Positions 6,904 through 61,505 of a stretch of 64,000 nt of DNA are shown here, one piece after another (within the stretch, counting starts at the first letter, position 1; each line of letters starts with the position of its first letter). Source of the stretch: Bacteroidales bacterium (GTDB lineage Bacteria; Bacteroidota; Bacteroidia; Bacteroidales; F082). The DNA lies in contig JAEFAE010000002.1 of the NCBI GenBank assembly GCA_016291135.1, positions 1 through 64,000 on the forward strand. Direction: 5' to 3'. Below the pieces are notes generated by a model. It was not told the origin of the DNA, ran no database searches, and worked only from the letters and a program-made list of their open reading frames with translations. Both the position numbers and the translations under genes were made by a program.

Positions 6904-9900
6904 ATGTCATCGAAACAGGTATTGGTCGAAAAGATCGAACGCTTCATCCGGAAGTTTTACCTCAACCGCCTGGTGCAAGGTGTGTTGGTGGGTGCTGCCT
7001 TATGGATCGTTTTTTATCTGTTGGTGAATGCCTTGGAGTATTTCTCCTGGTTCTCCTCTAAAGTCCGTCTGGGCCTCTTTGTGCTGCTGTTGCTCGGCAG
7101 TGCCGTGGTGCTGGTGCATTGGTTTTTGGTGCCGCTTTGGAATCTGGTCCGTTTCAGGAAGCGCATGACCCACGAGCAGGCGGCCTTGTTGATCGGTCGT
7201 TTTTTCCCCGACATCCAGGACAAGTTGCTCAATACGCTGCAGTTGGCCGATGCTGCGGAGACCGATCCCGAAAACGCCTTGTTGGCCGCTTCCATCGAAC
7301 AGCGCACCCAACGGCTCACCCCGGTGCGTTTCACCGATGCGGTCGATCTGAAGGGCAACCTCCGCTATCTTTGGCTCTTTCTCGGATTGGTGGCTGTCCT
7401 GATCGGTTTGGTCTGTTTCCTTCCGCGTTTTGCGGTGCAGCCCACCCAGCGCATCCTTCATTACAACGAAGCGTTTGAGAAACCGCTTCCTTTTGAGGTG
7501 GTGCTTTCGCATGACGCTTTCGAGGCCACCCAAGGTTCCGATCTGCCCTTCTCGATCCGTGTTACTGGTTCCCGCATTCCGGATGCCTTTTACGTGAAGA
7601 GCCCCTTGGGCCAGCAATTGCTGAACAAGCAAAGTGTCAACGATTACGACTATGTGTTTCGCAACCTCAACCACGACTTTTCTTTCCAAGTGGTGGGCGG
7701 TGACTATTGCAGTCAACCCATCCCGGTGACGGTGCATCCCAATCCGGTGCTCCTCTCCTACCGTTGTTTGGTGACCTATCCCACCTATATCCATCGTGCT
7801 CCTGAATCCTTCGACGGCAAGACCCGTTTGTTGGTTCCTCAGGGCGCGCGTCTCGCCTTTTTCTTTTCGTTGCGCGATTGCGACAGCGCCTTCATCCAAG
7901 TGGACTCCCTTTGGCGGGCGCTGCCGTTGCAAGACGGTGAAGCCACCTTTCCCTTGACGGCCTCCTCCTCGCTTGCTTTCGACTTGGTGGCGCGCAACGC
8001 CTGGTCCTCGAAGTTCGACCCCCTTCGGTTTGCGGTGGACGTGATTCCCGACGCCTATCCCGACATCCGTGTGGAGTCGTTCGATGAGGCCTTATCCAAC
8101 GACGTGTATTACTCGGGCCTGCTGGCCGACGATTATGGTTTGACCAAACTCGTTTTCCATGGCGTGGTCAAACAGCCGGTGGAGCGCACCTTCATCGTCC
8201 CGGTGGTATTCGACAAGACCCAGCCGCGCACTTCGTTCTTCCACCACCTCAACCTCGACAGCCTCGGCGTGCTTCCTGGACAGGAGTTGGAGGTGTATTT
8301 CGAGGTTTGGGACAACGACGGCTTCCATGGACCCAAGTCGAAGCGCTCCACGACGTTCTCCTATTTCAAGGCCTCGCAGGCGATGCTTGACTCGGTGGCC
8401 TCGCAGACCGAGAATGAGATCATGGACAAGATGGCGGAACGCTCCCAGGATGCTTCCAAACTGAAAGACGATTTGGAGAAGATGCTTCAGGAACTGGCCG
8501 CCAAAAAGGAATTGGATTGGTCGGACAAGGAGAAGATCAAAGACCTGGTGCAACAACAGGCCCAGCTCGAGGAGGAGTGGAACAAGCTGCAGGACGAACA
8601 GCGTCAACTCAGTGATTTCATGAAGGAAAACAACGTCGCCAACGAGGAATTGCTCAAGAAACAGCAGCAAATCAACGAGCTCTTTGAGGAGCTGGTTCCC
8701 GACGAGTTGAAGAAAATGATGGAGGAAATCGAGCGCCTGCTCGACGAAATGCCGCGTGACCGGATGCAAGAACTGCTGAAGGACATGAAGACGGACAACC
8801 AAAAGATGCAAGACCTCCTCGACCGCAACCTCGCCTTGCTCGAACAACTCCGGATGGAGAAAGACCTTACCGATTTGGCCGACAAACTCCAGCAGTTGGG
8901 CGAAGCCTTGCAGGAAGAAAAGACCAAATCGGCCGAGGAGGCCCAACGCGAATTCGACGACCTGATGAAGACGTTCGATAGCCTCCAGGAGAAGAACCAA
9001 CAGCTCACCGACCCCTTCCAGATCCAAAAAGACGAAGCCTTGGAAGAGTCGATCGATCAGGATTTGGAGCAAGCGGCTGCCCAAGAACAACAGGAACAGG
9101 CGGGTGAATCCGGCGATCAGGATGCGGAACCTTCGTCCGAAGAGCAACCTTCGTCCGAAGAACAACCATCCTCCGAAGAGCAACCTTCGTCCGAAGAACA
9201 ACCGTCGTCGGAACCCTCCAGCAGCCCTTCTTCTTCACAATCGAAGAAAAACGCGGGCAAGAAGATGCAACAGATGGCCAATGCCATGATGATGCAGATG
9301 CAATCGGGTGCGGACCAGCAAATGGCCGAAGATGCCCATCTGGTACGCATCCTGTTGGAAAACGTCGTCAGGGCGTCGCACCAGCAGGAAGCCTTGATGT
9401 CGTCGCTGGGCCGGATGCGGAACGACGATCCTTCCCTGTCGGATAAAATCGTCCAGCAGAAGGCCTTGGCCGACAACTTCACGATGGTGGAAGATTCGCT
9501 CCGGGCCATGGCCTTGCGCCAGCCGATGATCAAGAACTACATCTTCGACGAACTCGATGTCGTTGACCGACAGACGGAGGTGGCTCTTAAATATATGAAC
9601 GACCTTCGGCTTTCGATGGCGGTTGCCAACCAACAAACCGCCTTGCAGTCGATGAACAACCTGGCCTTGATGCTTGCCGAATCGCTCCAGCAGATGGAAA
9701 GCTCCATGAGCGGGTCGGGTTCGTCGCAACAGCGCAGCAAACCTAGCAAAGGCCAACAAGGCCAAAACATGAAGAACATGCAACAGCTTCAGGAACAAAT
9801 GGGTGAACAGCTCAAACAACTCCAGCAGCAGATGCAAAGCCAACAGGGCGACAAGCTTTCGAAACAGCTTTCCGAGGAGCTGGCACGTATGGCCGCTGAA

Positions 9901-24579: not shown

Positions 24580-24957
24580 ATGCATAATTCCCCCAAAAAA
24601 CTATTCGTTTTACTATTCGTGTTGTTGTTATCAACGGTGTGTTGGGGAGCAATCATCACCTGTTCATACGATGAGCAACACCCGATTGTAATCAAAGAGA
24701 GCTCTGTCCAAGGCCCTCCCAAGGGTTCTACCATCCAGGCCTCCATCAACGGCCATGCCCTCACGGTGACGTTCACCGAGAACCTCGGTGACGTACAGAT
24801 CGACATCACCAGCGCCTCGGGCGGTGCGGTAAGCTACGGCCACGTCTGGACCCCCGACAGCTACATCGCCTACATCCCCAACACGGGCAGCTACGTGGTC
24901 ACCATCACCCTCGGCAACGGGGATGTGTATTACGGCGAGTTCGAGGTGACGGATTGA
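24580..24957 (+). CDS. Small secreted DUF3244-type protein, copy 2
   Basis: A 125-residue exported protein with a signal peptide (about 1-23). The N-terminal third is divergent and AT-rich. The C-terminal part from 24731 on is GC-rich and nearly identical at DNA level to 27838-28062. It ends 'YYGEFEVTD' like copy 1. It lies 131 bases after the TPR regulator copy 2, the same pairing as at the start of the window. It may be a secreted partner or target of the regulator; no function is known. Confidence 0.8.
   Translation: MHNSPKKLFVLLFVLLLSTVCWGAIITCSYDEQHPIVIKESSVQGPPKGSTIQASINGHALTVTFTENLGDVQIDITSASGGAVSYGHVWTPDSYIAYIPNTGSYVVTITLGNGDVYYGEFEVTD
24731..24955 (+). repeat. 225-bp direct repeat, first copy
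   Basis: This block is almost identical to 27838-28062, 3107 bases downstream in the same orientation. I count about three differences by eye. It encodes the C-terminal domain of the DUF3244 protein. The near-identity shows a recent duplication or gene conversion. Confidence 0.9.
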
Positions 24958-27720: not shown

Positions 27721-28064
27721 ATGGAAAAACCGATTATCTTTGCCGAAAACAACGAGGTGGATAGTCTGAACGACTTCAATGGGCATTACTTCCACCTGTT
27801 GCTTTCAGAGTTGCTCTACAAGAACTACTAAGCTCTTCCATCCAGGCCTCCATCAACGGCCACGTCCTCACGGTGACGTTCACCGAGAACCTCGGTGACG
27901 TACAGATCGACATCACCAGCGCCTCGGGCGGTGCGGTAAGCTACGGCCACGTCTGGACCCCCGACAGCTACATCGCCTACATCCCCAACACGGGCAGCTA
28001 CGTGGTCACCATCACCCTCGGCAACGGGGATGAGTATTACGGCGAGTTCGAGGTGACGGATTAA
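27721..28064 (+). pseudogene. Collapsed third TPR-regulator/DUF3244 cassette
   Basis: Positions 27721-27831 encode 36 residues, 'MEKPIIFAENNEVDSLND' and onward to a stop. They match residues about 50-85 of the TPR regulators. The stop is directly followed by the C-terminal DUF3244 domain (27831-28064), with no signal peptide or N-terminus. About 1.7 kb has been lost at the junction. The regulator piece mixes residues typical of copy 1 ('SLNDFNGHYF') and copy 2 ('FAEN.EVDSL'). The 63-residue ORF at 27873 in the track is part of this remnant and probably not a gene. Confidence 0.85.
27838..28062 (+). repeat. 225-bp direct repeat, second copy
   Basis: Nearly identical to 24731-24955 (offset 3107). 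Differences seen include ccatgccctc/ccacgtcctc and gatgtg/gatgag, and the stop codon changes from TGA to TAA. Recombination between the two copies would delete the lipoprotein and the T9SS gene between them. Confidence 0.9.
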
Positions 28065-41163: not shown

Positions 41164-42579
41164 ATGGTATTCAGCAGCAACGTCTTTTTGCTTTATTTCT
41201 TGCCACTGTTTCTGCTGTGCTACTTCGTCTGTCCGCAAAGGTTCAGGAATTATGTCATTCTGGTCTTCTCCATCATCTTCTATGCCTGGGGCGGGCCCGA
41301 GTTCATCCTGATCTTGCTGGGATCCACCATCGCGACGTATTTCATCGTCAAGGCGATGTGCAAGACGGATAAGTCATCGGCAAAGAAATGGCTTTGTGCT
41401 GCTGCCATCACCTTGAATCTGGGGTTGTTGGTGTGGTTCAAATACGCCAACTTCTTGGTGGATAACGTCAACGCTCTTGTAGCGCTTTTCCACGGTCATG
41501 GCATTCAACTGGCCAAAGTCGTGCTGCCCATAGGCATTTCTTTCTTCACCTTCCAGTCCATCACCTACGTGTTAGACTCCTACCGGGGTCAGGTGAAACC
41601 CATGGACAAGCTGACGGACTACATCGTCTATATCATGATGTTTCCGCAGCTGATTGCGGGTCCCATCGTGCGGTATGGTGATGTGGAACAGCAACTCAGG
41701 CATCGTGAGAGTCCGCCGTCGGAACGCTTGCAGGGCTTCTATCGGTTTGTCATCGGCCTTGCCAAGAAAGTATTGATAGCTGACGTCATCGCCAAGCAGG
41801 CGGATGTCTATTTCGCCTCCGACCTCAGCACCATGGACATGGGCACAGCTTGGATCGGCATTTTGGCCTATACCATGCAGCTGTATTTCGACTTCTCGGG
41901 CTATTCCGACATGGCTATCGGTCTGGGACGGATCATGGGATTCAAGTTCCCCGAGAACTTCGACAATCCCTATACCAGCAAGAGCATCACTGAATTTTGG
42001 CGCCGGTGGCATATCACGCTGGGTACATTCATCAAAGGCTATCTGTACATCCCCTTGGGTGGCAACCGAAGGGGTACGGCCCGCACCTATTTCAACCTCT
42101 GGGTCTGTTTCCTGCTTTCGGGCCTGTGGCACGGTGCCGCTTGGAACTTCGTGCTTTGGGGCGCGTTCCACGGCTTTTTCATCGTGCTGGAGAAGTTGTT
42201 GAGTGGCAAACGGAAAGATTTCCATTTCCCACTTTCCACGCTGGTCACGTTCATCCTCGTCATGATCGGCTGGGTGTTGTTCCGCGCGGATAACATCAGT
42301 CACGCCTTCGACTACTACAAGGCCATGTTCTCGTTCAACTTCGAGGGCTTCAGCTGGAACGGTGATAGCCAGTTCTACACCACGCTCATCCTCGCTGTGG
42401 TCTTCTCCTTCTTGACGTTATTCCCCTTCGGTCGAAAGATCGAGCAGGTGGTGTTCTATAAGAACTATGGCGCCTGGGGTCATGTGGCAGCTTGGGTGGT
42501 GTCCGTCGCCTTGTTGATCTTCAGTATCGGAGCGCTGAACGCCACAGGTTTCAGTCCATTCATCTATTTCAGATTCTAA
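41164..42579 (+). CDS. MBOAT O-acyltransferase 1 (AlgI/DltB-like)
   Basis: A 471-residue polytopic membrane protein of the AlgI/PatA type. The N-terminus 'MVFSSNVFLLYFLPLFLLCY' and the signature 'FWRRWHITLGTF...YIPLGGNRRG' are typical. The catalytic His lies in 'GLWHGAAWNFVLWG' (His323). MBOATs pass acyl groups across the membrane to a periplasmic SGNH partner that acylates a polymer; several AlgJ-like candidates are encoded nearby. It is closely similar to MBOAT 2 and 3 of this window. The first LtaS-like gene starts four bases after its stop. Confidence 0.92.
   Translation: MVFSSNVFLLYFLPLFLLCYFVCPQRFRNYVILVFSIIFYAWGGPEFILILLGSTIATYFIVKAMCKTDKSSAKKWLCAAAITLNLGLLVWFKYANFLVDNVNALVALFHGHGIQLAKVVLPIGISFFTFQSITYVLDSYRGQVKPMDKLTDYIVYIMMFPQLIAGPIVRYGDVEQQLRHRESPPSERLQGFYRFVIGLAKKVLIADVIAKQADVYFASDLSTMDMGTAWIGILAYTMQLYFDFSGYSDMAIGLGRIMGFKFPENFDNPYTSKSITEFWRRWHITLGTFIKGYLYIPLGGNRRGTARTYFNLWVCFLLSGLWHGAAWNFVLWGAFHGFFIVLEKLLSGKRKDFHFPLSTLVTFILVMIGWVLFRADNISHAFDYYKAMFSFNFEGFSWNGDSQFYTTLILAVVFSFLTLFPFGRKIEQVVFYKNYGAWGHVAAWVVSVALLIFSIGALNATGFSPFIYFRF
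42211..42240 (+). repeat. TTTCCAC-type tract inside MBOAT 1
   Basis: The tract cggaaagatttccatttc continues with ccactttccacg and encodes 'RKDFHFPLST' in a loop before a conserved helix. The same loop of MBOAT 2 and 3 carries longer tracts. Confidence 0.55.
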
Positions 42580-42583
42580 GGCT

Positions 42584-45067
42584 ATGGGCAATCATAAAAC
42601 AAACCGCTTTTCACCTTCGGCCCTTCGTCCTTTTTTAGCGTTCCTCTTTTGGATGCTGGTCTTCGGCTTTGCTGTCCGACTTTTTGAGGCGGCTTTGCTG
42701 GGCTATTACCAGGAGCAGTTTTGGAAGCAACTCGCCCTGTGTTTGAAGGGTTTCTGTTACGATGTGTTGTTTTTCAGCAAACTCGCGCTTATCCTCTGCC
42801 CCCTGTATCTGTTGATCCATCGTTTTTCGAGAAAGGCCGCCCGATGGACCTTTTGCATCATCGGCACCATGATGTTGCTGATTTCCAATGCAATGATTAT
42901 GTACTACATCTCGGCGATGATGCCTTTGGACAAAGTCTTTTTCGACTATTCGGTGAAAGAGCTGATCTATATTTCCCAATCCACCGGCGCTTTCGTCTGG
43001 TGGGGCTACGTCGGCCTCTTGCTCATCCCCGCCTTGTTTTTCATCGTCTATGGCATCCTCAAAAAAGAACCCTTTCCACTTTACCTCCCTTCGGTCGGTG
43101 AGGGCTTACGCCGTTCCACGCTCCACTTTCCACTTTATCTTTGGCTCGCCCTTGCCCTTCTCGGTCTCTTTGTCTGGGACGTTCCCGTTTGGGCTTATAG
43201 CAACCGTGAAGGCAAGAACACCATCTGTAACAAGCAGGAGTTCTTCTGGAAAAGCCTGATCCGGACCGAGGCGCCTTTCTCACGTTTCGACCCGAAGGAC
43301 TTGGAACAACAGCGCGACCGCATACAGACCTTCCAATCTTTCTTCCCTGAGGACGAGTTTGTGGATTACCGTTATCCGTTTGCCCATGTTGACCATTCGC
43401 CCGATGTGCTCTCGCAGTATTTCGATTTGAATCCCGATACGATGCCGAATCTGGTGTTCATCATCACCGAGGGGCTAAGCCGTGAGTTCAGCGGTCCGAA
43501 CAGCAAATTCCCTTCGGCCACTCCCTTCCTCGATTCGCTGGCCGACCACAGCCTTTCGTGGCTTAACTGCATGTCGTCGTCGCAACGTACCATCGCCGTG
43601 CTGCCTAGCCTGTTCGGCAGCCTGCCCTTTGGCAAACGGGGCTTCATGCAGTCGCCCGACTGTCCCCGTTTTTACTCTTTGCCCGGCATCTTGAAGGACA
43701 ATGGCTATGAGACTTCTTTCTTCTATGGCGGCTGGACCTGTTTCGACGATATGTGCTATTTCCTGAACGATATGGGTATCGACCATTATCTGCCGGAATA
43801 CACCAGCTATCCTCAAGAGATGCAAAACACCTGGGGCCTCTACGACGAATACCTCTTCTCCGAATCCCTCAAAGAAAGGAACCTTTCACCTTTCACCTCT
43901 CACCTCTCACCTCATCTCGATATCTACCTCACCTTGTCCACCCACGATCCCTTTGACTACCCCGACAAAGCACGTTACACGAAGATCTATACCGACAAGT
44001 TGATCCAAAACCACAAACAGCATAACATCGAACAATTCCAGTATGAGCAATACGCCTCTTATCTCTATTACGACGACTGTTTGAGGAAGTTCTTCGACGC
44101 ATATCGTCAGCTGCCCGGTTTTGAAAACACAATCTTCATCATCACCGGCGACCATTGCTTCAACGGCAAGTCGGAGGAACTTGACAAATATCATGTGCCT
44201 TTTGTTATCTGGTCGCCCATGCTCAAGGAAGCACATCGTTTTCCAGCCATAATTTCCCATCGCGACGTGACCCCTTCGTTCTTGGCCATGATGAAACAGG
44301 TTTACGGCATCCAGTCGCCCTCTGTGGTGAGTTGGCTTAATACAGGCTTGGACACGTGTTCTCACTTCCGGTCGAACACTTTTACGCCTCAGCTGAAAAA
44401 CTCCCGCAAAATGGACAATATGGTCTATAAGGACTATTATTACGACGAGGGGATGGTGTTCAAGTTTGGTTTTGAGGATGACAAACTGACGATCACTCCG
44501 GTCAACAACGAAGCGATGCTGAATTTTGTGAAAGAATACAAAGCCATGGATGACTATGTGATGCGGAACGACGCCTTGGTGAAACTGGATGAGGACAAAC
44601 AGCAGCTGCTGGTGTCTGTTGACAGCACCCAGAGCGTGAATCACGTGCTTCTTAACAGCTATACAAGGCCGATCGACACCTTGGATCATCACAATTGTTT
44701 TGTGTTCAACGGAATCTATCCATTCACCTTGTTCAGCGAAGTCCTGGACGACACCCTTCAGTCGGTGGTGGTGTATTGTAGTTTCGATATCTTCATTCCC
44801 CGCGGAGATGATAAAGAGAAAATCGCTTTGGGCTTTTCCATCGACCGTTTGGATGGACGGCGGGAACTGCTGAAGACGCTGGTGATCAACTACGATTGGT
44901 ATGAGTATTACGATCAATGGCAGCATTACTCTTTGACGCAAACCTTTAACCGCGCTCAGTTGAAATATCTGACAGGGGAGAAGCTGATGGCCTATTTTGG
45001 AAATGGCGGCGAGCGCACCTTTGTTTTGTCGGATTTTAATCTTAAAGTGGTGGGGATCAATGAATAA
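42584..45067 (+). CDS. LtaS-like phosphotransferase (sulfatase fold) 1
   Basis: An 827-residue membrane enzyme of the alkaline phosphatase/sulfatase superfamily, closest in layout to lipoteichoic acid synthase and OpgB. Five N-terminal helices (to about 215) precede the periplasmic domain. That domain shows 'NLVFIITEGLSREF' (metal Glu), 'SSQRTIAVLPSLFG' (probable Thr nucleophile) and 'IITGDHCFNG' (metal Asp/His). It may transfer glycerophosphate or phosphoethanolamine to a glycan. A C-terminal sandwich-like region (about 680-827) resembles those of its neighbours. Two repeat tracts are embedded in it. The start of LtaS-like 2 overlaps its stop. Confidence 0.8.
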   Translation: MGNHKTNRFSPSALRPFLAFLFWMLVFGFAVRLFEAALLGYYQEQFWKQLALCLKGFCYDVLFFSKLALILCPLYLLIHRFSRKAARWTFCIIGTMMLLISNAMIMYYISAMMPLDKVFFDYSVKELIYISQSTGAFVWWGYVGLLLIPALFFIVYGILKKEPFPLYLPSVGEGLRRSTLHFPLYLWLALALLGLFVWDVPVWAYSNREGKNTICNKQEFFWKSLIRTEAPFSRFDPKDLEQQRDRIQTFQSFFPEDEFVDYRYPFAHVDHSPDVLSQYFDLNPDTMPNLVFIITEGLSREFSGPNSKFPSATPFLDSLADHSLSWLNCMSSSQRTIAVLPSLFGSLPFGKRGFMQSPDCPRFYSLPGILKDNGYETSFFYGGWTCFDDMCYFLNDMGIDHYLPEYTSYPQEMQNTWGLYDEYLFSESLKERNLSPFTSHLSPHLDIYLTLSTHDPFDYPDKARYTKIYTDKLIQNHKQHNIEQFQYEQYASYLYYDDCLRKFFDAYRQLPGFENTIFIITGDHCFNGKSEELDKYHVPFVIWSPMLKEAHRFPAIISHRDVTPSFLAMMKQVYGIQSPSVVSWLNTGLDTCSHFRSNTFTPQLKNSRKMDNMVYKDYYYDEGMVFKFGFEDDKLTITPVNNEAMLNFVKEYKAMDDYVMRNDALVKLDEDKQQLLVSVDSTQSVNHVLLNSYTRPIDTLDHHNCFVFNGIYPFTLFSEVLDDTLQSVVVYCSFDIFIPRGDDKEKIALGFSIDRLDGRRELLKTLVINYDWYEYYDQWQHYSLTQTFNRAQLKYLTGEKLMAYFGNGGERTFVLSDFNLKVVGINE
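43072..43137 (+). repeat. Composite intragenic repeat element in LtaS-like 1
   Basis: CTTTCCACTTTACCTCCC followed by TTCGGTCGGTGAG matches the reverse complement of the two 47-base units at 60800-60893 in the U32 gene, with a single extra base there. TTTCCAC repeats flank it on both sides. It encodes 'FPLYLPSVGEGLRRSTLHF' in a loop between membrane helices. Confidence 0.85.
43881..43913 (+). repeat. CTTTCACC-type tract in LtaS-like 1
   Basis: Copies of acctttcacc and acctctcacc in tandem encode 'LSPFTSHLSPHL' within the periplasmic domain. The same tract on the other strand occurs in MBOAT 3 at 55121-55153. Confidence 0.7.
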
Positions 45068-47567
45068 CAAAAAATCTTTATCTATCGCACTGGCTCAATG
45101 GCTTCGTCTGAATGCCTTGTTGCTGCTGTGCATGATCGCAGTCCGTCCCCTTTTCTTTTTGGAGGTCTATTTCAGGGTAGGATTGGCTCCCATTCATTTT
45201 TTCACCATCCTTTCTGGAGCCATCTACGATCTTCTGCTGGTCTGCCGGATCTTCGCCTATGGCCTGATCCCTTTCCTGGTCTTGCATGCTTTCTTCCCTA
45301 AGACGGCTCGGGGCATCTTCATCGGCTTGATCGTATTTTATGCGGTGGTGTCGGCGTTGCTTGCCGAGTATTACTGCAACCTCACCATGCCGCTTGACCA
45401 TGTGATTTTGATGTATTCCTATCAAGATCTAAAAACCACATTGAGTTCTTCTGCCACCTTGTCGATCGGTCAGGTGATCTGGTTTTTGTTGCAGGTGGGA
45501 GTGCCGGTGGGAATCGTGGTGTGGAGTAGAAAGTGGGGAGTGAAAAGTGGAAAGAGGAGAGAGAAAAGTGGAAAGTCTTCTGTTCTACGAGGTGTTTTGG
45601 CGGTGCTAATCGTTGCTGTTGGGTTGTTGGTGCCTTACAACCGCATGATCCGGGAGGAGCGGCTATATCCTGCCCATTATGACTTCTGTCTGGCCGTGAA
45701 CCAGCCCAGTTATTCGTATATCAAGATCGCCGATTATCTGAGGAACGAGGTGTTTCGTGACGTTTTCGAAGACAGTGACTTGTTTGATGAGCACCTGAAA
45801 GAGGCAGTGGCGGCCTATCATGCTGTCCATCCTGAGTTCGAGTACGACTATCCGGATTATCCGTTTTACCGCAAGGCCACCGATCCCGATGTACTCAGTC
45901 CATTCCTCCGTCAGACCTCAGATGGCTTGCCGCCTAATTTGGTCTTCATCATCGTGGAAGGATTGGGACGCCGTTTGACGGCGGTGTGGGAACCCGTCTT
46001 GTCGTTCACGCCTTTCATCGACAGTCTGGCATCAGAAGGACTGTTCTGGCCGCAATGTCTCTCCACTGCGGAACGCACCTTCGCCGTGTTGCCTTCGGTA
46101 TTTGCCTCCGCTCCCCATGGCCGATATGGTTTTTGCACGACCCTGAGTCAGACGCCACGCCACCACTCCCTGCTCCGCGACTTGGAGCGGAACGGATACT
46201 ACTCTTCCTTCTATTATGGCGGCGAACTCACTTTCGACCACTACGATTTCTTCCTGCAGGCGAACCACGTGGACTACCTGTTCAGTCCTTCCATCGTGGT
46301 GGAGGACACCGCAAAGTCTCGTTTGCTGACCGAAAACCACCGATGGGGCCTCGATGATGATCAGCTGGTGGAGCTGGCCATCGCTCAAAAACGTCAGGAC
46401 ACCGTGACAAGGCGGCCTTTTGTGGATATGTATCTGACGCTTAGCACCCACGAGCCTTTTGTGGTGGATGACTTGGAGCATTATGAGGAACTAGCAAGGC
46501 AAAGGGTTGAAAGCACGCCCAATGTGACCGACCAGGAACGCAGCAATGTGATGAAAAACCTCAACATCTTCGCCTGTTACCTCTATATGGACGAATGCAT
46601 CCGCAACTTGTTCGCTTACTATGCCTCCCGACCTGATTTCGAGAACACCTTGTTTGTCCTTACTGGCGACCATAGGATGGCTTATTTGCCTTTTGGAAGC
46701 TCCATCCGCAAATACAACGTGCCGCTGGTGATCTACTCGCCGCTGCTGTCCCGTTCAAAGCGGATGGAAGCAGTGGTCTCGCATCTCGACATCACCCCCT
46801 CGCTCAATGCCTATCTTCACGCCAACTACAACTATGCCATTGACGACCATTGCCACTGGCTAGGCACCTCGTTCGACACCGTCTCGGAATTCCGCAATAC
46901 CCGCAAACTCGCGTTCATGCTCAACAACCGTGATGTGGTGGATTATTGTAGCGGTAATCATATCCTCAGTAATCAAAAACTGTTTCAACTGGATTCCCGT
47001 CTGGTGGAAACCAAGGATGATAACGAGAATCTGTGCAAACTCCTAATGAACGAGCTGGACAACTTCGATTTGATCAGCCGCTTTGTAGTGAAGGAAGACC
47101 TCCTGCTTCCGCGAGGTGACCAATCCAATCTCTACTCCTGTCTCTTGGACTTCGACCACAACTCCATGAGTGTCTTCGATAAATACCTGGTCAAAGACAG
47201 CGCCTTCCTGCGTGTGGGCAAGGAGGTGGAGTATTTCTCCCTGTGCTCAAATCTGGCCGTCTTGCCGATCTATGAGGATCTGTTGGTGGAGGTGTCGTTT
47301 GACATCCGGAGTGTGGACACAAGTCTCACTTTGCCCGCTCTGCGCGTCGCCTTGGGTGATGCCTACGCACAACGGAATCTCTCCGAAGTGAACGGATTGA
47401 ACACTGGTAAGTGGGAGCATTACCATGCCCGAATCCCGATGGAGGTGATCCATCAGACAGAAACCCAGGCGCTGAAACTGGTCTTGTGGAAGAAGAACTC
47501 GAGTTCGTTTGAACTGGACAACCTCGTGGTGAATGTGGAGGCTTCGTTGAGGCAGAAGGATCAATAG
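45060..47567 (+). CDS. LtaS-like phosphotransferase (sulfatase fold) 2
   Basis: An 835-residue homologue of the preceding enzyme. I start at ATG 45060, which overlaps the previous stop by 8 bases (ATGAATAA); the track start at 44997 adds 21 residues of overlap. Membrane helices occupy the first 215 residues. The catalytic domain shows 'NLVFIIVEGLGRRL', 'STAERTFAVLPSVF' and 'VLTGDHRMA'. The C-terminal region ('GKWEHYHARIPMEV', 'LKLVLWKKNSSSFELDNL') resembles that of the acyltransferase. Two such enzymes side by side suggest priming and extension, or two substrates. The stop overlaps the convergent GDPD-like gene by 7 bases. Confidence 0.8.
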   Translation: MNNKKSLSIALAQWLRLNALLLLCMIAVRPLFFLEVYFRVGLAPIHFFTILSGAIYDLLLVCRIFAYGLIPFLVLHAFFPKTARGIFIGLIVFYAVVSALLAEYYCNLTMPLDHVILMYSYQDLKTTLSSSATLSIGQVIWFLLQVGVPVGIVVWSRKWGVKSGKRREKSGKSSVLRGVLAVLIVAVGLLVPYNRMIREERLYPAHYDFCLAVNQPSYSYIKIADYLRNEVFRDVFEDSDLFDEHLKEAVAAYHAVHPEFEYDYPDYPFYRKATDPDVLSPFLRQTSDGLPPNLVFIIVEGLGRRLTAVWEPVLSFTPFIDSLASEGLFWPQCLSTAERTFAVLPSVFASAPHGRYGFCTTLSQTPRHHSLLRDLERNGYYSSFYYGGELTFDHYDFFLQANHVDYLFSPSIVVEDTAKSRLLTENHRWGLDDDQLVELAIAQKRQDTVTRRPFVDMYLTLSTHEPFVVDDLEHYEELARQRVESTPNVTDQERSNVMKNLNIFACYLYMDECIRNLFAYYASRPDFENTLFVLTGDHRMAYLPFGSSIRKYNVPLVIYSPLLSRSKRMEAVVSHLDITPSLNAYLHANYNYAIDDHCHWLGTSFDTVSEFRNTRKLAFMLNNRDVVDYCSGNHILSNQKLFQLDSRLVETKDDNENLCKLLMNELDNFDLISRFVVKEDLLLPRGDQSNLYSCLLDFDHNSMSVFDKYLVKDSAFLRVGKEVEYFSLCSNLAVLPIYEDLLVEVSFDIRSVDTSLTLPALRVALGDAYAQRNLSEVNGLNTGKWEHYHARIPMEVIHQTETQALKLVLWKKNSSSFELDNLVVNVEASLRQKDQ
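45521..45576 (+). repeat. GTGGAAA-type array in LtaS-like 2
   Basis: Tandem variants of AAAAGTGG and GAGGAGAG span 56 bases and encode 'SRKWGVKSGKRREKSGKSS', a strongly basic loop after the fourth helix. The tract is A/G-only for most of its length, unlike the surrounding codons. Confidence 0.75.
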
Positions 47568-51148: not shown

Positions 51149-52593
51149 CAGAACCTAAAATATATGAAGGGGTTGAAACTGCCTTTGAGGATGAAAGAAG
51201 CGGAGAGTATCAGCAGGACGACCATCAGCAGGCTGACGAGCGCATATTGTCTAGGCCGATAGGCCTTTTTGTTGAAGAAGAAATCCAGGGTTTTTTGTCC
51301 CGCTTGGGTCATCCCGAAGAAGGAGAAGAAGGCGGCGATGACCAAAGTGGTGACAAACTGCGGGTTGCAGAAGGCCACAGGGTTGTTGCCGTGGAAGCCG
51401 AACAGGGTGCCAAGATACTGGATGGCATAGCCAAGCGTGTCGGCGCGGAAGAACACCCAGCCGATCATGACTAGGAAGAAGGTAAGGAGCGTGGAGAATG
51501 GGGAGTGAAGCGTAGATAGTTTTCCGTTTTCCACCTTTCGCTTCCCTTTTAACAATTTGTCCAGACAGATGAAGATGCCGTGGTAGGCGCCCCAGACCAC
51601 AAAGTTCCAGGAGGCACCGTGCCAGAGCCCCGACAGGAAGAAGACGATCCAGAGGTTGAGATAGGTTCTGCCCCGGCCTTTGCGGTTACCTCCCAGCGGG
51701 ATGTATAGATAATCCATCATCCAGTTGCCTAGGGTGATGTGCCAGCGTTTCCAGAACTCGGTGATGCTTTTGCTGATATAGGGACAGTTGAAGTTTTCCG
51801 GGAACTTGAAGCCAATCATCCGTCCGATACCGATGGCCATGTCGGAATACCCCGAGAAGTCGAAATAGATCTGGAAGGTGTAGGCAAGGATGCCCAACCA
51901 AGCGGTCCCCACCCCGATTTCGGTGGCGGGCTGGGCAAACACCTGATCGACATATTCTGCCATAATGTTGGCAATCAACATCTTCTTCGAGAGTCCGATA
52001 ATAAAACGGTACATGCCAAGCAGCTTGTTGTCAATGGTCTCGTTGGCTTGCCTGTCAACCAGTTGCTCGGCGACTTCGTTGTAGCGCACGATGGGTCCCG
52101 CGATCAGTTGCGGGAAAAGCATGATGAACAGCGCGTAGTCAGCGATGTTGTCCAACGAGGCTGCCGTCTTTCGATAGACGTCGATGCTACAGCTCATTTT
52201 CTGGAACGTAAAGAAGGAGATGCCGATGGGCAGTACCACCTTGGTCCATCTCACAGGGCTGCTTCCAAAGACGGCTAGCAGACTGTTGAAGTTCTCGATG
52301 AAGAAATTGGCGTATTTAAAATAGGCCAGCAACCCGATGTTCAAGACCACGGACAGCAGCAAAAACAACTTGCGTCGTTTGGGATCTTCGCTTTTGCTGA
52401 TCTGACGGACCAGAAAGTAGTCGATCAGGATGGAAAGCAGCAACACTATCAAGAACCTGGGTGATCCAAATCCGTAGAACACCAGGCTCGCCAGCAGCGC
52501 AATCCCGTTTTTGTATTTCCTGTCAGCAAGGAAATACAGCACCAAGAACAGGGGCAGGAAATAAAACAAGAAGATGCTGCTACTGAATACCAT
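51148..52593 (-). CDS. MBOAT O-acyltransferase 2 (AlgI/DltB-like)
   Basis: A 481-residue membrane acyltransferase. Signatures are 'MVFSSSIFLFYFLPLFLVLY', 'EFWKRWHITLGNWMMDYLYI' and 'GLWHGASWNFVVWG' with the catalytic His. It is about ten residues longer than the other two because of a repeat tract in one loop ('KRKVENGKLSTLHSPFST'). It is coupled to AlgJ-like 2 by a TGATG overlap and has a possible promoter inside the end of AlgJ-like 3. Confidence 0.92.
   Translation of the reverse strand: MVFSSSIFLFYFLPLFLVLYFLADRKYKNGIALLASLVFYGFGSPRFLIVLLLSILIDYFLVRQISKSEDPKRRKLFLLLSVVLNIGLLAYFKYANFFIENFNSLLAVFGSSPVRWTKVVLPIGISFFTFQKMSCSIDVYRKTAASLDNIADYALFIMLFPQLIAGPIVRYNEVAEQLVDRQANETIDNKLLGMYRFIIGLSKKMLIANIMAEYVDQVFAQPATEIGVGTAWLGILAYTFQIYFDFSGYSDMAIGIGRMIGFKFPENFNCPYISKSITEFWKRWHITLGNWMMDYLYIPLGGNRKGRGRTYLNLWIVFFLSGLWHGASWNFVVWGAYHGIFICLDKLLKGKRKVENGKLSTLHSPFSTLLTFFLVMIGWVFFRADTLGYAIQYLGTLFGFHGNNPVAFCNPQFVTTLVIAAFFSFFGMTQAGQKTLDFFFNKKAYRPRQYALVSLLMVVLLILSASFILKGSFNPFIYFRF
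51489..51549 (-). repeat. GTGGAAA/TTTCC tract inside MBOAT 2
   Basis: The tract runs from gcgtggagaatggggagtga to agttttccgttttccacc and cgcttccctttt. It shares AGTTTTCCGTTTTCC with MBOAT 3 and the U32 gene. It adds residues to a loop that is shorter in the other MBOATs, so it is a true length change in the protein. Confidence 0.75.
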
Positions 52594-53933: not shown

Positions 53934-55352
53934 TTAGAATCGGAAGTAGATGAAGGGATTGAAGTCGGAGACACAGAGTGCGCCAGTGGATAGGATCAGA
54001 AGAACCAGCGTGATGGCAAACATGATCCAGGATAGTCTTCGGGAATAGTGCTCGGCAAAGACGGTGTCTTGCAGCTTCTTTCCGCCCTTAGTGAGGGTGA
54101 GGAAGGAGAAAACCAAGGCGATGACGAGGGTGGCCCAGAACTGCGCATCGGCGGTTCCATGAAGGCCCTGCCTGAAGGAGAAGAGCGCAGCATAATACCC
54201 GCCTGCACCGAGGATGTCATCCGCCCTGAAGAGCACCCAGCCCATCATGACGAGGAAGAAAGTGGTGAGAGTGGAAAGTGGAAAGTGGAAAGTTTTCCGT
54301 TTTCCACTTAACAGCTTGTCGATGCAGATGAAGAATCCGTGGAAGGCTCCCCAGAGCACGAAGTTCCAGGAGGCGCCATGCCACAAGCCCGAGAGCAGGA
54401 AACAGAGCCACAAATTGAGGTACATTCGTCCTCTGCCTTTGCGGTTGCCACCCAGCGGGATGTAGAGATAATGCATGATGAAGTTACCCAGGGTCATATG
54501 CCAGCGTTTCCAGAACTCGGTGATGCTCTTGCTGGTATAAGGGTCGTTGAAGTTCTCCGGGAACCGGAAGCCCATCATCATGCCCAAGCCGATGGCCATG
54601 TCGGAATAGCCCGAGAAGTCGAAGTAGATCTGCATGGTATAGGCCAAGATGCCCAGCCAGGCGCTTCCGGTGGACAACTCGGCGTAGTTCATGCCGAAGA
54701 CCTGGTCGGCATACAAGGCCAAGGTGTTGGCGATGAGCACTTTCTTGCTCAAGCCGATGACGAAACGGTAAAAGCCCAGGGCTCGGCCTTCCATGGTGCT
54801 CTCGCGAGAGACCAGCTGTTCGGCCACGGTATTGTAGTTGACGATGGGACCGGCGATGAGCTGGGGAAACATCATGATGTACACCACATAGTCGGTGAGC
54901 TTCTTGCTGGGAGGGGTCGTGCCGCGAAACACGTCGAGGGTATAAGTGATCGACTGGAAGGTGAAGAACGAGATGCCAATGGGCAAGGCCACCTTCATCC
55001 AACCAACGGGCTCATGGTGGAACCAGCCAATGATAGCGTTGAGGTTTTCCATGAGAAAGTTGGCGTATTTGAAATAGATCAACAGCCCTAGCGACATGAT
55101 GATGGAAAGGGCACACAAAACACCTTTCATCTTTAACCTTTCACCTTTCACCTTCGCCATACCTCGCACCAAAAAATAGTTGATGATGCATTCTCCCACC
55201 AGCACCAACACAAAATCGGGTGCTCCATAGGCATAAAAGACCAGGGAAAATAGCAACAGGGTATAGTTCCTGAATTTCCGCGGGGTGAGATAATACACTA
55301 TTAGAAATATGGGTAGGAAAAAGAAAAGAAATATGTTACTACTGAATACCAT
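53934..55352 (-). CDS. MBOAT O-acyltransferase 3 (AlgI/DltB-like)
   Basis: A 472-residue membrane acyltransferase. Signatures are 'MVFSSNIFLFFFLPIFLIVY', 'EFWKRWHMTLGNFIMHYLYI' and 'GLWHGASWNFVLWG'. It is very close to MBOAT 1. Two repeat tracts lie in its loops: 'KVKGERLKMKG' (55121-55153) and 'GKRKTFHFPLST' (54262-54309). It has AlgJ-like 4 two bases upstream and AlgJ-like 3 three bases downstream, so either may be its acceptor partner. Confidence 0.92.
   Translation of the reverse strand: MVFSSNIFLFFFLPIFLIVYYLTPRKFRNYTLLLFSLVFYAYGAPDFVLVLVGECIINYFLVRGMAKVKGERLKMKGVLCALSIIMSLGLLIYFKYANFLMENLNAIIGWFHHEPVGWMKVALPIGISFFTFQSITYTLDVFRGTTPPSKKLTDYVVYIMMFPQLIAGPIVNYNTVAEQLVSRESTMEGRALGFYRFVIGLSKKVLIANTLALYADQVFGMNYAELSTGSAWLGILAYTMQIYFDFSGYSDMAIGLGMMMGFRFPENFNDPYTSKSITEFWKRWHMTLGNFIMHYLYIPLGGNRKGRGRMYLNLWLCFLLSGLWHGASWNFVLWGAFHGFFICIDKLLSGKRKTFHFPLSTLTTFFLVMMGWVLFRADDILGAGGYYAALFSFRQGLHGTADAQFWATLVIALVFSFLTLTKGGKKLQDTVFAEHYSRRLSWIMFAITLVLLILSTGALCVSDFNPFIYFRF
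54262..54309 (-). repeat. GTGGAAA array with inverted arm in MBOAT 3
   Basis: Three tandem copies of GTGGAAA are followed by TTTTCCGTTTTCCACTT, so the tract can fold back on itself (AAGTGGAAA/TTTCCACTT). It encodes a loop before a conserved helix. Confidence 0.75.
55121..55153 (-). repeat. CTTTCACC-type tract in MBOAT 3
   Basis: Tandem acctttca/acctttcacc units encode 'KVKGERLKMKG', a basic loop after the third helix. On the opposite coding strand the same unit occurs in LtaS-like 1 at 43881-43913. Confidence 0.7.
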
Positions 55353-59456: not shown

Positions 59457-61505
59457 ATGAAAAATACCAGGATTGAGCTTCTTTCGCCCGCCAAAGACGT
59501 GGAAGTGGGTATCGCCGCCATCAACCACGGGGCGGATGCCGTCTATATCGGGGGTCCCGCCTTCGGGGCTCGGGAGAAGGCCGGCAACAGCATCGCCGAC
59601 ATCGAGCGGCTGTGCCGTCATGCGGCCTTGTTCGATGCCAAGGTGTATGTTACTTTGAACACCTTGCTCTACGATAGTGAGTTGGAACAAGCTCGTCGGA
59701 TCGCCCTTGACTGCTGGAATGCCGGGGTCGATGCTTTGATTGTGCAGGACATGGCCCTGTTGCAGATGGATTTGCCCATCCCTTTGCATGCCAGCACGCA
59801 ATGCGATAACATGACGGTGGAGAAGGTTCATTTTCTGGAGTCGGTGGGCTTTTCGCAAGTGGTGTTGGGTCGTGAGCTCACGATCGACCAGATCCGTGAG
59901 ATCCGGCAGCACACCACGGTGCCTTTGGAATTTTTCGTGCATGGGGCCTTGTGTGTGAGCCATAGTGGGCAGTGTTATCTGAGTCACTATATCGGCAACC
60001 GTTCGGCCAACCGAGGTGCTTGTGCCCAGCCTTGCCGACTTCCTTGGGATTTGGTGGCTTCTTCCTTGTCCTCTTCCCAAGGGAGGGAGGAGACCCTGAT
60101 TAAAGGAAAGCACCTTCTATGCTTAAAGGATTTGAACAACAGCACCCATCTCGAAGAATTGATGGATGCGGGCATCACGAGTTTCAAGATCGAAGGCCGT
60201 TTGAAAGACGCTGATTATGTAAAGAATGTGACTGCTTTTTACCGGCAGTTGCTGGATGCGATCTTCGAGCGTCGTCCTGAGTATGTCCAAGCCTCGCTCG
60301 GTCATGGTAGCTTTGATTTCGAGGTGAACCCTTCAAAGTCGTTCAACCGGGGCTTCACCGACTATTTCATTCACGGTCGCCAGCCAGGTATCGGTTCCCC
60401 CGATACGCCCAAGTCGATGGGCGAATACATCGGGGTGGTGAAATGGTGCAATTCCGTCCAGATGGAAATCCAATTGGATCCTATAGCGGCGCTTGGCCAG
60501 GTGTCGCTGCACAATGGGGATGGTTTGTGTTTCCTAAATGATGATGGGGAGCTGGTTGGTATCCGCGCCGATGTGGTACGGAATGGTACGGACCCGGTAC
60601 GGAAAGGTACGGATGCGGTACGGAAAGGTACGGACGCCGTTTGTAAGGTGGTCACCAATCGGCCTCACGGAGCCTCCCGCGGCACGCGCATCTATAGGAA
60701 TTATGACCTTGAATGGCAGAAACAAGTGGATGCTTCCAAAGGCAACCGCAAGATCGATATCGCCTTGGTGTTGTCGGAAACGGAAGAAGGCTATGAGTTA
60801 AGTGGAAAGTTGAACCCCGAAGGGCTCACCGACCGAATGGGAGGTAAAGTGGAAAGTGGAACCCCGGAGGGCTCACCGACCGAATGGGAGGTAAAGTTTT
60901 CCGTTTTCCGTTTTACACTTTCCACTCCCAAGATCGTCGCCACCAACCCGGAGAAGGCCTCGGAGAACATCCGCAAGAAGGCCCTGCAGTGGGGCGACAC
61001 GGTGTTCAATCCCGTAAACCTAGAGCTGCGTTTTTCTCAGCCTTATCTGATCCCTGCCTCTGTGCTTGGGGAGTTGAAACGGGGCTTGGTGGAACGGTTA
61101 ACCGAAGTGTTGATCGATCGGCATCATCGTTCTCGATTAGGGAAAGCGGTTCTTGCTAAGGAGGGCGCTTCTTCTGAGTCGCGGATATCTTCCGGAGGAG
61201 CATCTGCGCCCGCCCCGTATCCTACCTCCCAACTGTCCTATCAAGGCAATGTCACCAACCATTTGGCGGAGGCCTTCTATCGTTCGCATGGGGTAGCGGA
61301 AATCGAGGAAGCCTTGGAGAAGTCGTTCTCGAAGCAACCCGGTCTGACCTTGATGACCACCCACCATTGTATCCGTTTCGCCAACGGAATGTGTTTGAAA
61401 AACCACCCCGCTTACACGGGTCCATTAACGATCCGCAACGGATCCAACACCTTCCGGTTGGAATTTGATTGCAAGCATTGTCTTATGAAAGTTATCTCAA
61501 TTTAA
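59457..61505 (+). CDS. U32 family peptidase-like protein (RlhA/YhbU type)
   Basis: A 682-residue protein with the U32 signature 'EFFVHGALCVSHSGQCYLS' (about 162-180) and 'RGACAQPCRLPW'. The N-terminal TIM-like part begins 'IELLSPAKDVEVGIAAINHG'. Once called collagenase-like, many U32 proteins in fact act in RNA modification; the long form with a C-terminal extension is like E. coli RlhA (23S rRNA C2501 hydroxylation). A conserved Cys set is present. About 45 residues between the domains come from a repeat element read in two frames (60796-60930). It is monocistronic and divergent from the AlgJ operon. Confidence 0.85.
   Translation: MKNTRIELLSPAKDVEVGIAAINHGADAVYIGGPAFGAREKAGNSIADIERLCRHAALFDAKVYVTLNTLLYDSELEQARRIALDCWNAGVDALIVQDMALLQMDLPIPLHASTQCDNMTVEKVHFLESVGFSQVVLGRELTIDQIREIRQHTTVPLEFFVHGALCVSHSGQCYLSHYIGNRSANRGACAQPCRLPWDLVASSLSSSQGREETLIKGKHLLCLKDLNNSTHLEELMDAGITSFKIEGRLKDADYVKNVTAFYRQLLDAIFERRPEYVQASLGHGSFDFEVNPSKSFNRGFTDYFIHGRQPGIGSPDTPKSMGEYIGVVKWCNSVQMEIQLDPIAALGQVSLHNGDGLCFLNDDGELVGIRADVVRNGTDPVRKGTDAVRKGTDAVCKVVTNRPHGASRGTRIYRNYDLEWQKQVDASKGNRKIDIALVLSETEEGYELSGKLNPEGLTDRMGGKVESGTPEGSPTEWEVKFSVFRFTLSTPKIVATNPEKASENIRKKALQWGDTVFNPVNLELRFSQPYLIPASVLGELKRGLVERLTEVLIDRHHRSRLGKAVLAKEGASSESRISSGGASAPAPYPTSQLSYQGNVTNHLAEAFYRSHGVAEIEEALEKSFSKQPGLTLMTTHHCIRFANGMCLKNHPAYTGPLTIRNGSNTFRLEFDCKHCLMKVISI
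60796..60930 (+). repeat. Duplicated composite repeat element inside the U32 gene
   Basis: Two 47-base units start at 60800 and 60847 (aagtggaaagt..., ctcaccgaccgaatgggagg) and differ at two positions by eye. A TTTTCCGTTTTCCG and TTTACACTTTCCACT arm follows. Because 47 is not a multiple of three, the first unit reads 'NPEGLTDRMGG' and the second 'TPEGSPTEWEV'. The reverse complement of the same unit lies in LtaS-like 1 (43072-43137). Confidence 0.9.

Follow-up and report, generated by a model that had tools for sequence, protein, structure and literature searches.

A 31-bp DNA repeat confined to one genus of Bacteroidales appears to be an ultra-small mobile element that lands in pre-existing repeats and hairpins and persists in protein loops that tolerate it, a reading to which we assign a probability of roughly 0.8. 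Three copies are present in the window, the 64,000-nucleotide stretch of contig analysed here, and their common sequence has two layers: an outer one of 7-bp units (GTGGAAA, CGGAAAA and others), arranged as an array or a hairpin, and an inner 31-bp core, CCCCGAAGGGCTCACCGACCGAAYGGGAGGT. In our collection of 65 distinct copies from the same genome and its relatives, the core is dispersed, flanked by AA, associated with a net length of 33 bp, nested in other repeats and cleanly absent from orthologues, and in-frame copies occupy several essential-type genes. The pattern suggests that the core has moved actively, that its insertions are neutral, and that the tolerance of protein loops decides which copies survive.

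The two host proteins in the window are unrelated by Pfam. One gene (ORF at 42584-45067, plus strand) encodes an LtaS-like membrane sulfatase (Sulfatase, PF00884), and the other (59457-61505, plus strand) encodes a U32 peptidase with DUF3656 (Peptidase_U32, PF01136; PF12392). As the first-pass annotation had reported, an element in the LtaS-like gene recurs twice in the U32 gene as its reverse complement (60797-60894) with one extra base (CCC-A-TTCGG), and both ORFs stay open through it. In the LtaS-like gene, a minus-strand core of subfamily B (CGGCGTAAGCCCTCACCGACCGAAGGGAGGT) at 43083-43113 splits a plus-strand (CTTTCCA)n array at 43072-43136, of which positions 43072-43102 read CTTTCCACTTTACCTCCC-TTCGGTCGGTGAG; the core has TT on each side, at 43081-43082 and 43114-43115, which is AA when read on the minus strand, and it encodes ..LYLPSVGEGLRRS.. 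in the protein. The two U32 cores, both on the plus strand, lie in a heptamer hairpin at 60797-60926 (plus strand) that has a GTGGAAA arm and a TTTTCCG/CACTTTCCAC arm. The first (60815-60845, AA at 60813-60814 and 60846-60847) is translated as NPEGLTDRMGG, and the second (60862-60892, AA at 60860-60861 and 60893-60894) is read in a different frame as TPEGSPTEWEV. The left third of the core is CGGCGTAAGCC in the LtaS copy and CCCCGAAGGG in the U32 copies. Subtracting the core and one AA from each of the three leaves unbroken heptamer arrays, GTGGAAAGTTGAAAGTGGAAAGTGGAAAGTTTTCCGTTTTCCGTTTTACACTTTCCAC in the U32 gene and CTTTCCACTTTCCACGCTCCACTTTCCACTTT in the LtaS-like gene.

Similar arrays occur elsewhere in the window. 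A heptamer hairpin that lacks a core lies in loop 2 of an MBOAT acyltransferase (54240-54314, minus strand), and the G008 orthologue has a core at that loop; a second MBOAT paralogue has a hairpin (51481-51555, minus strand) and a third has heptamer units (42196-42270, plus strand) in the same loop. The LtaS-like gene contains a second, in-frame array with the unit CACCTCT (NLSPFTSHLSPH; 43880-43921, plus strand), and a second LtaS-like gene has GTGGAAA-type units at 45540-45574 (WGVKSGKRREKSGKSS).

The length of the mobile unit could be defined from the 65 copies, some of which came from the same genomes under different labels, with duplicates taken out by sequence. The invariant part is the 31 bp of CCCCGAAGGGCTCACCGACCGAAYGGGAGGT, with subfamily B taking in the LtaS copy. 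Among the 63 measurable copies, core length is exactly 31 bp in 56, 30 bp in six and 29 bp in one, and AA is found on each side in all but one (62/63). For 38 copies hosted by heptamer arrays, removing 33 nt (the core plus one AA) gave a 92% lag-7 match across the joint (244/266), and the other removal lengths tested, from 25 to 39 nt, gave 12-54%. Since removal of 33 nt restores the 7-bp register, the net insertion is 33 bp, or 11 codons, and the frame is kept. A simple reading of the double AA is duplication of an AA target; it could also be that the AA on both sides is the element's own end, carried along. Four of the six frames of the main core (subfamily A) are open, and this, together with a net length divisible by three, explains why genic insertions usually add just 11 residues. 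We rejected the idea that being open in all six frames is a design feature, as the core is open in four and shuffled sequences average five.

By pattern scoring, 40 of the 65 cores reside in heptamer arrays (CGGAAAA or GTGGAAA), 19 in CGTCATTGCGAG...GCAATCC palindromes, one in a context scored as both and five in neither, proportions that do not amount to an unbiased census, of contexts or of genic copies, because the copies were partly collected by searching for the core itself. By eye, one of the five unscored copies (L097) corresponds to one end of a CGTCATTGCGAG...GCAATCC palindrome, two (L002, L003) sit in degenerate heptamers, and two (L118, L137) resemble other hairpins. These contexts overturn one earlier proposal, that the element is built of TTTCCAC units: the heptamers are an older landing array, and the same core resides in CGGAAAA arrays and in the palindromes. 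Heptamer arrays are themselves in excess in the congeners sampled, with 16 in 80 kb of G023, 28 in 200 kb of G034 and 21 in 200 kb of G011, against one in 200 kb of a genome from another family. Coding hairpins of at least 13 bp were only weakly above shuffles genome-wide and were not specific to core-bearing genomes, and we dropped them as evidence. At one locus (L010, G000:C57:29543), a CCGTTTTC/heptamer array lies immediately upstream of an apparent tmRNA gene.

The nesting of every copy in repeats, with flanks that fit the local array type, could be explained if the core arose once in a heptamer array and was copied through shared heptamers by gene conversion, with no transposition at all. 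Spread within one array type could indeed be conversion between arrays. As a full account we consider this possible but doubtful, since the core and its AA borders are found in unrelated hosts, in arrays of CGGAAAA or GTGGAAA units and at three different places within the CGTC palindrome (GCGAG-AA, GGC-AA-TCC and CTCGC-AA-TGACG), and several independent insertions would still be needed. Identical AA borders around the core in at least five different host sequences point to genuine insertions and speak against gene conversion as the only process.

The core is restricted to a single genus, known mainly from ruminant metagenome-assembled genomes (MAGs). In the genome from which the window derives (2.62 Mb, 60 contigs, 83% complete), further copies are present on other contigs and on both strands, with E values from 9e-18 to 5e-8. 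A 23-mer search allowing up to two mismatches found 25 matches in G008, 13 in G023, seven in G000, three in G013 and one each in G004 and G034; 29 other congeners had no match, and a reversed-pattern control returned zero. Only the window's own genome matched among 393 Bacteroidales genomes of 206 genera, and the exact 23-mer was found in six Bacteroidales MAGs, several of them ruminant-labelled, out of 85,462 GTDB genomes. Viral contigs, phages and plasmids gave no match to the core, and we rejected transfer by phage or plasmid. Given the E values of the additional copies and the empty reversed control, the similarity between the two host genes is not due to chance. All of our data are MAGs, a source in which assembly artefacts might be suspected, yet the core is present in assemblies made independently in yak, goat, red deer and other studies, and the exact restoration of register adds to the clean control in giving artefact or chance coding similarity a negligible probability.

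Twenty-one copies are internal to ORFs of 190 aa or more, with no fewer than 35 residues between them and either end, and all are read through. Hosts backed by Pfam include PurA, MurE, AroE, a GreA-type protein, Vsr, an S41 protease and a PfkB kinase, with MBOAT backed by the Pfam matches of the window paralogues; two further hosts we take, from their sequences, to be LptD and FtsK. The MurE insert comprises 32 residues and falls between positions that align to neighbouring residues 389 and 390 of PDB 8f5d, and the alignments of PurA and AroE likewise show gaps at their inserts. In an AlphaFold model of an MBOAT protein with two inserts, built from a shallow six-sequence alignment (mean pLDDT 69), both inserts are placed in low-confidence loops between helices (70-80 and 360-386).

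Comparison of orthologous loops suggests how such inserts are built up. In the four closest LtaS orthologues, at 69-76% identity, the element is missing and the loop is 17 residues shorter. MurE provides the clearest series, from a plain loop, V-R-(C/R)-H-K-E-T-L-I-T (VRCHKETLITVVG), in 12 species, to heptamer arrays of various units in G010, G018, G020, G022, G023 and G034, to arrays with a core in G008. The PurA loop is mostly plain; some species have AGAAGAC-type arrays there, and RUI549 has both an array and a core. Local coding sequence seems to have seeded the array in some purA genes; in G008 (L325), a AGAAGACAG array is apparently expanded from local AGAAGATAGAAG coding sequence. Every stage, from plain loop through heptamer array to array plus core, can thus be seen among congeners in murE and purA. 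The first-pass annotation had inferred dispersed in-frame insertion, and this is borne out by the further copies in the same genome and genus and by homologues without the residues; neither of the outcomes that would have undercut it, shared residues in homologues or a repeat found only here, was observed.

We read the DNA of the U32 loop in 19 congeners, and most of them carry a repeat there other than the one in the window: GTAGAGACGCACGGCCGTGCGTCTCTAC, a CGTCATTGCGAGG palindrome, (CGGAGAA)n hairpins, CAGTTGG/CCAACTG, CAATTAT or CACCTTT. MBOAT loops 1 and 2 follow a similar pattern across species. That the U32 loop holds a different repeat, inverted or heptameric, in nearly every species of the clade might mean that a hairpin or an added peptide is useful there, for RNA stability or protein regulation, and that each species retains its loop repeat by selection. 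We regard such a function as improbable: the inserts share no common peptide sequence between species and differ in frame, the U32 loop of a sister clade (L051-L060) is short and has no repeat, and so many unrelated proteins are affected that tolerance is the simpler explanation. At one congener's U32 loop (L049), a palindrome, TTTTTTCGCAAATCACGGAAACC/GTTTCCGTGATTTGCGAAAAAA, looks from the alignment to have been copied from neighbouring coding sequence, suggesting that template switching may be an origin of such hairpins. A second U32 loop in the window (60573-60650) carries a tandem GGTACGGA(C/T)GC-type repeat, and congeners have GTAGAGACG-type palindromes there.

We propose that the 31-bp core inserts at an AA dinucleotide within existing heptamer arrays or palindromic repeats, leaving AA on either side and a net gain of 33 bp. 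The arrays would already sit in insertion-tolerant loops, such as the variable DUF3656 loop of the U32 peptidase, inter-helix segments of LtaS and MBOAT, and linkers of MurE and PurA, so that insertions would be nearly neutral and persist. The likeliest route would be that a folded single strand enters AA sites in exposed repeat hairpins, either by means of an enzyme acting in trans or through template switching during replication. The two-hairpin fold predicted for the core is little better than that of shuffled sequences, as RNA or as DNA (z about -1), and single-strand or hairpin-based insertion is therefore a guess, prompted by how rich the targets are in hairpins.

Alternatively, a host RAYT (Y1 transposase) might mobilise the core as a REP/REPIN-type element. 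RAYT-type genes were present in nine of ten genomes tested, and the CGTC palindromes in which cores are found resemble known CGTC REPs, a family also reported from Bacteroidetes (PMC3733652). CGTC- and GTAG-tagged REPs are likewise short and sometimes intragenic, and two Xanthomonas species carry different REPs at roughly the same position in recB (PMC3733652). The core, in contrast, has neither the CGTC or GTAG end tag nor the 8-9 bp stem by which such REPs are defined (PMC3733652), and it inserts into such palindromes. REPINs flank their cognate RAYT, and among 20 matched Y1 loci we found no core within about 1.5 kb, nor any transposase near a core. Movement by a RAYT thus appears unlikely. 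Two of the Y1 loci (L166 and L168) have a nearby CATTGCGAG motif.

The system most similar in outcome is that of the RPEs of Rickettsia, established in-frame repeats (Ogata 2000, 2002; reviewed in PMC10969869). Both are dispersed, frame-compatible, presumed selfish, and found in frame in many unrelated and presumably working genes. The likeness to RPEs that had been suggested from the window therefore stands in functional terms but not by definition: RPEs are described as palindromic over their full length of about 150 bp, whereas the core is 31 bp, forms no single long palindrome, is nested within other repeats with AA borders and a 33-bp gain, and belongs to another sequence family and phylum. 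In-frame selfish repeats have been a well-known oddity of Rickettsia, and here an RPE-like outcome is reached in an unrelated phylum with a far smaller element. MITEs are also non-autonomous and dispersed, and the AA on both sides with a 33-nt gain could reflect a short target-site duplication, though the AA may be the element's own; the core differs in lying below the MITE size range of 70-300 bp (PMC3733652) and in having no terminal inverted repeats (its ends read CCCC...AGGT).

For the outer layer, the nearest relatives are tandem heptamers. TAACTGA heptamers have been described in five Bacteroidetes, mainly in intergenic regions (PMC4679880). The arrays studied here are similar in being tandem, 7 bp in unit length and genus-wide, with a unit that varies by species, and differ in that many form hairpins within coding loops and act as landing sites. 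Cyanobacterial STRRs are heptamer tandem repeats as well; the landing-pad arrays share with them tandem 7-bp units above chance, a property that does not apply to the core. A likeness on the side of the core is offered by the small dispersed repeats (SDRs) of cyanobacteria, which are 20-30 bp, mobile and found within other repeats, and which differ in being palindromic and mostly intergenic. SDRs were described by Elhai (2008; cited in PMC3116915).

No report of the core, or of in-frame repeats in this group, was found in the open-access literature, which leaves most subscription journals outside. The earlier statement that no Bacteroidota family like this had been described accordingly holds for the core within that literature, and gives way where related repeats are concerned, since CGTC-type palindromes (PMC3733652) and TAACTGA heptamers (PMC4679880) are on record in Bacteroidetes. 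We tentatively raise the possibility that the core represents a class of mobile DNA that is new, its unit of 31 bp being one of the smallest known. Such a unit would enter only repeat arrays and hairpins, at AA, its net length would be divisible by three, and in several species of one genus it would extend protein loops by an undescribed single-strand insertion activity. How short repeats enter proteins and persist in them is an old question that can now be tested directly. Annotators should be aware that, in these genomes, an insert in a loop may be a DNA parasite and not a domain.

An Rfam scan of the window matched tRNAs and no other known structured RNA. Two other kinds of repeat are found in the window: a segment of 110-230 bp in three copies that are 95-98% identical (59-169, 24727-24955 and 27834-28062), and an in-frame 18-bp tandem repeat (AACCTTCGTCCGAAGAGC) at 9128-9217, inside a long ORF.
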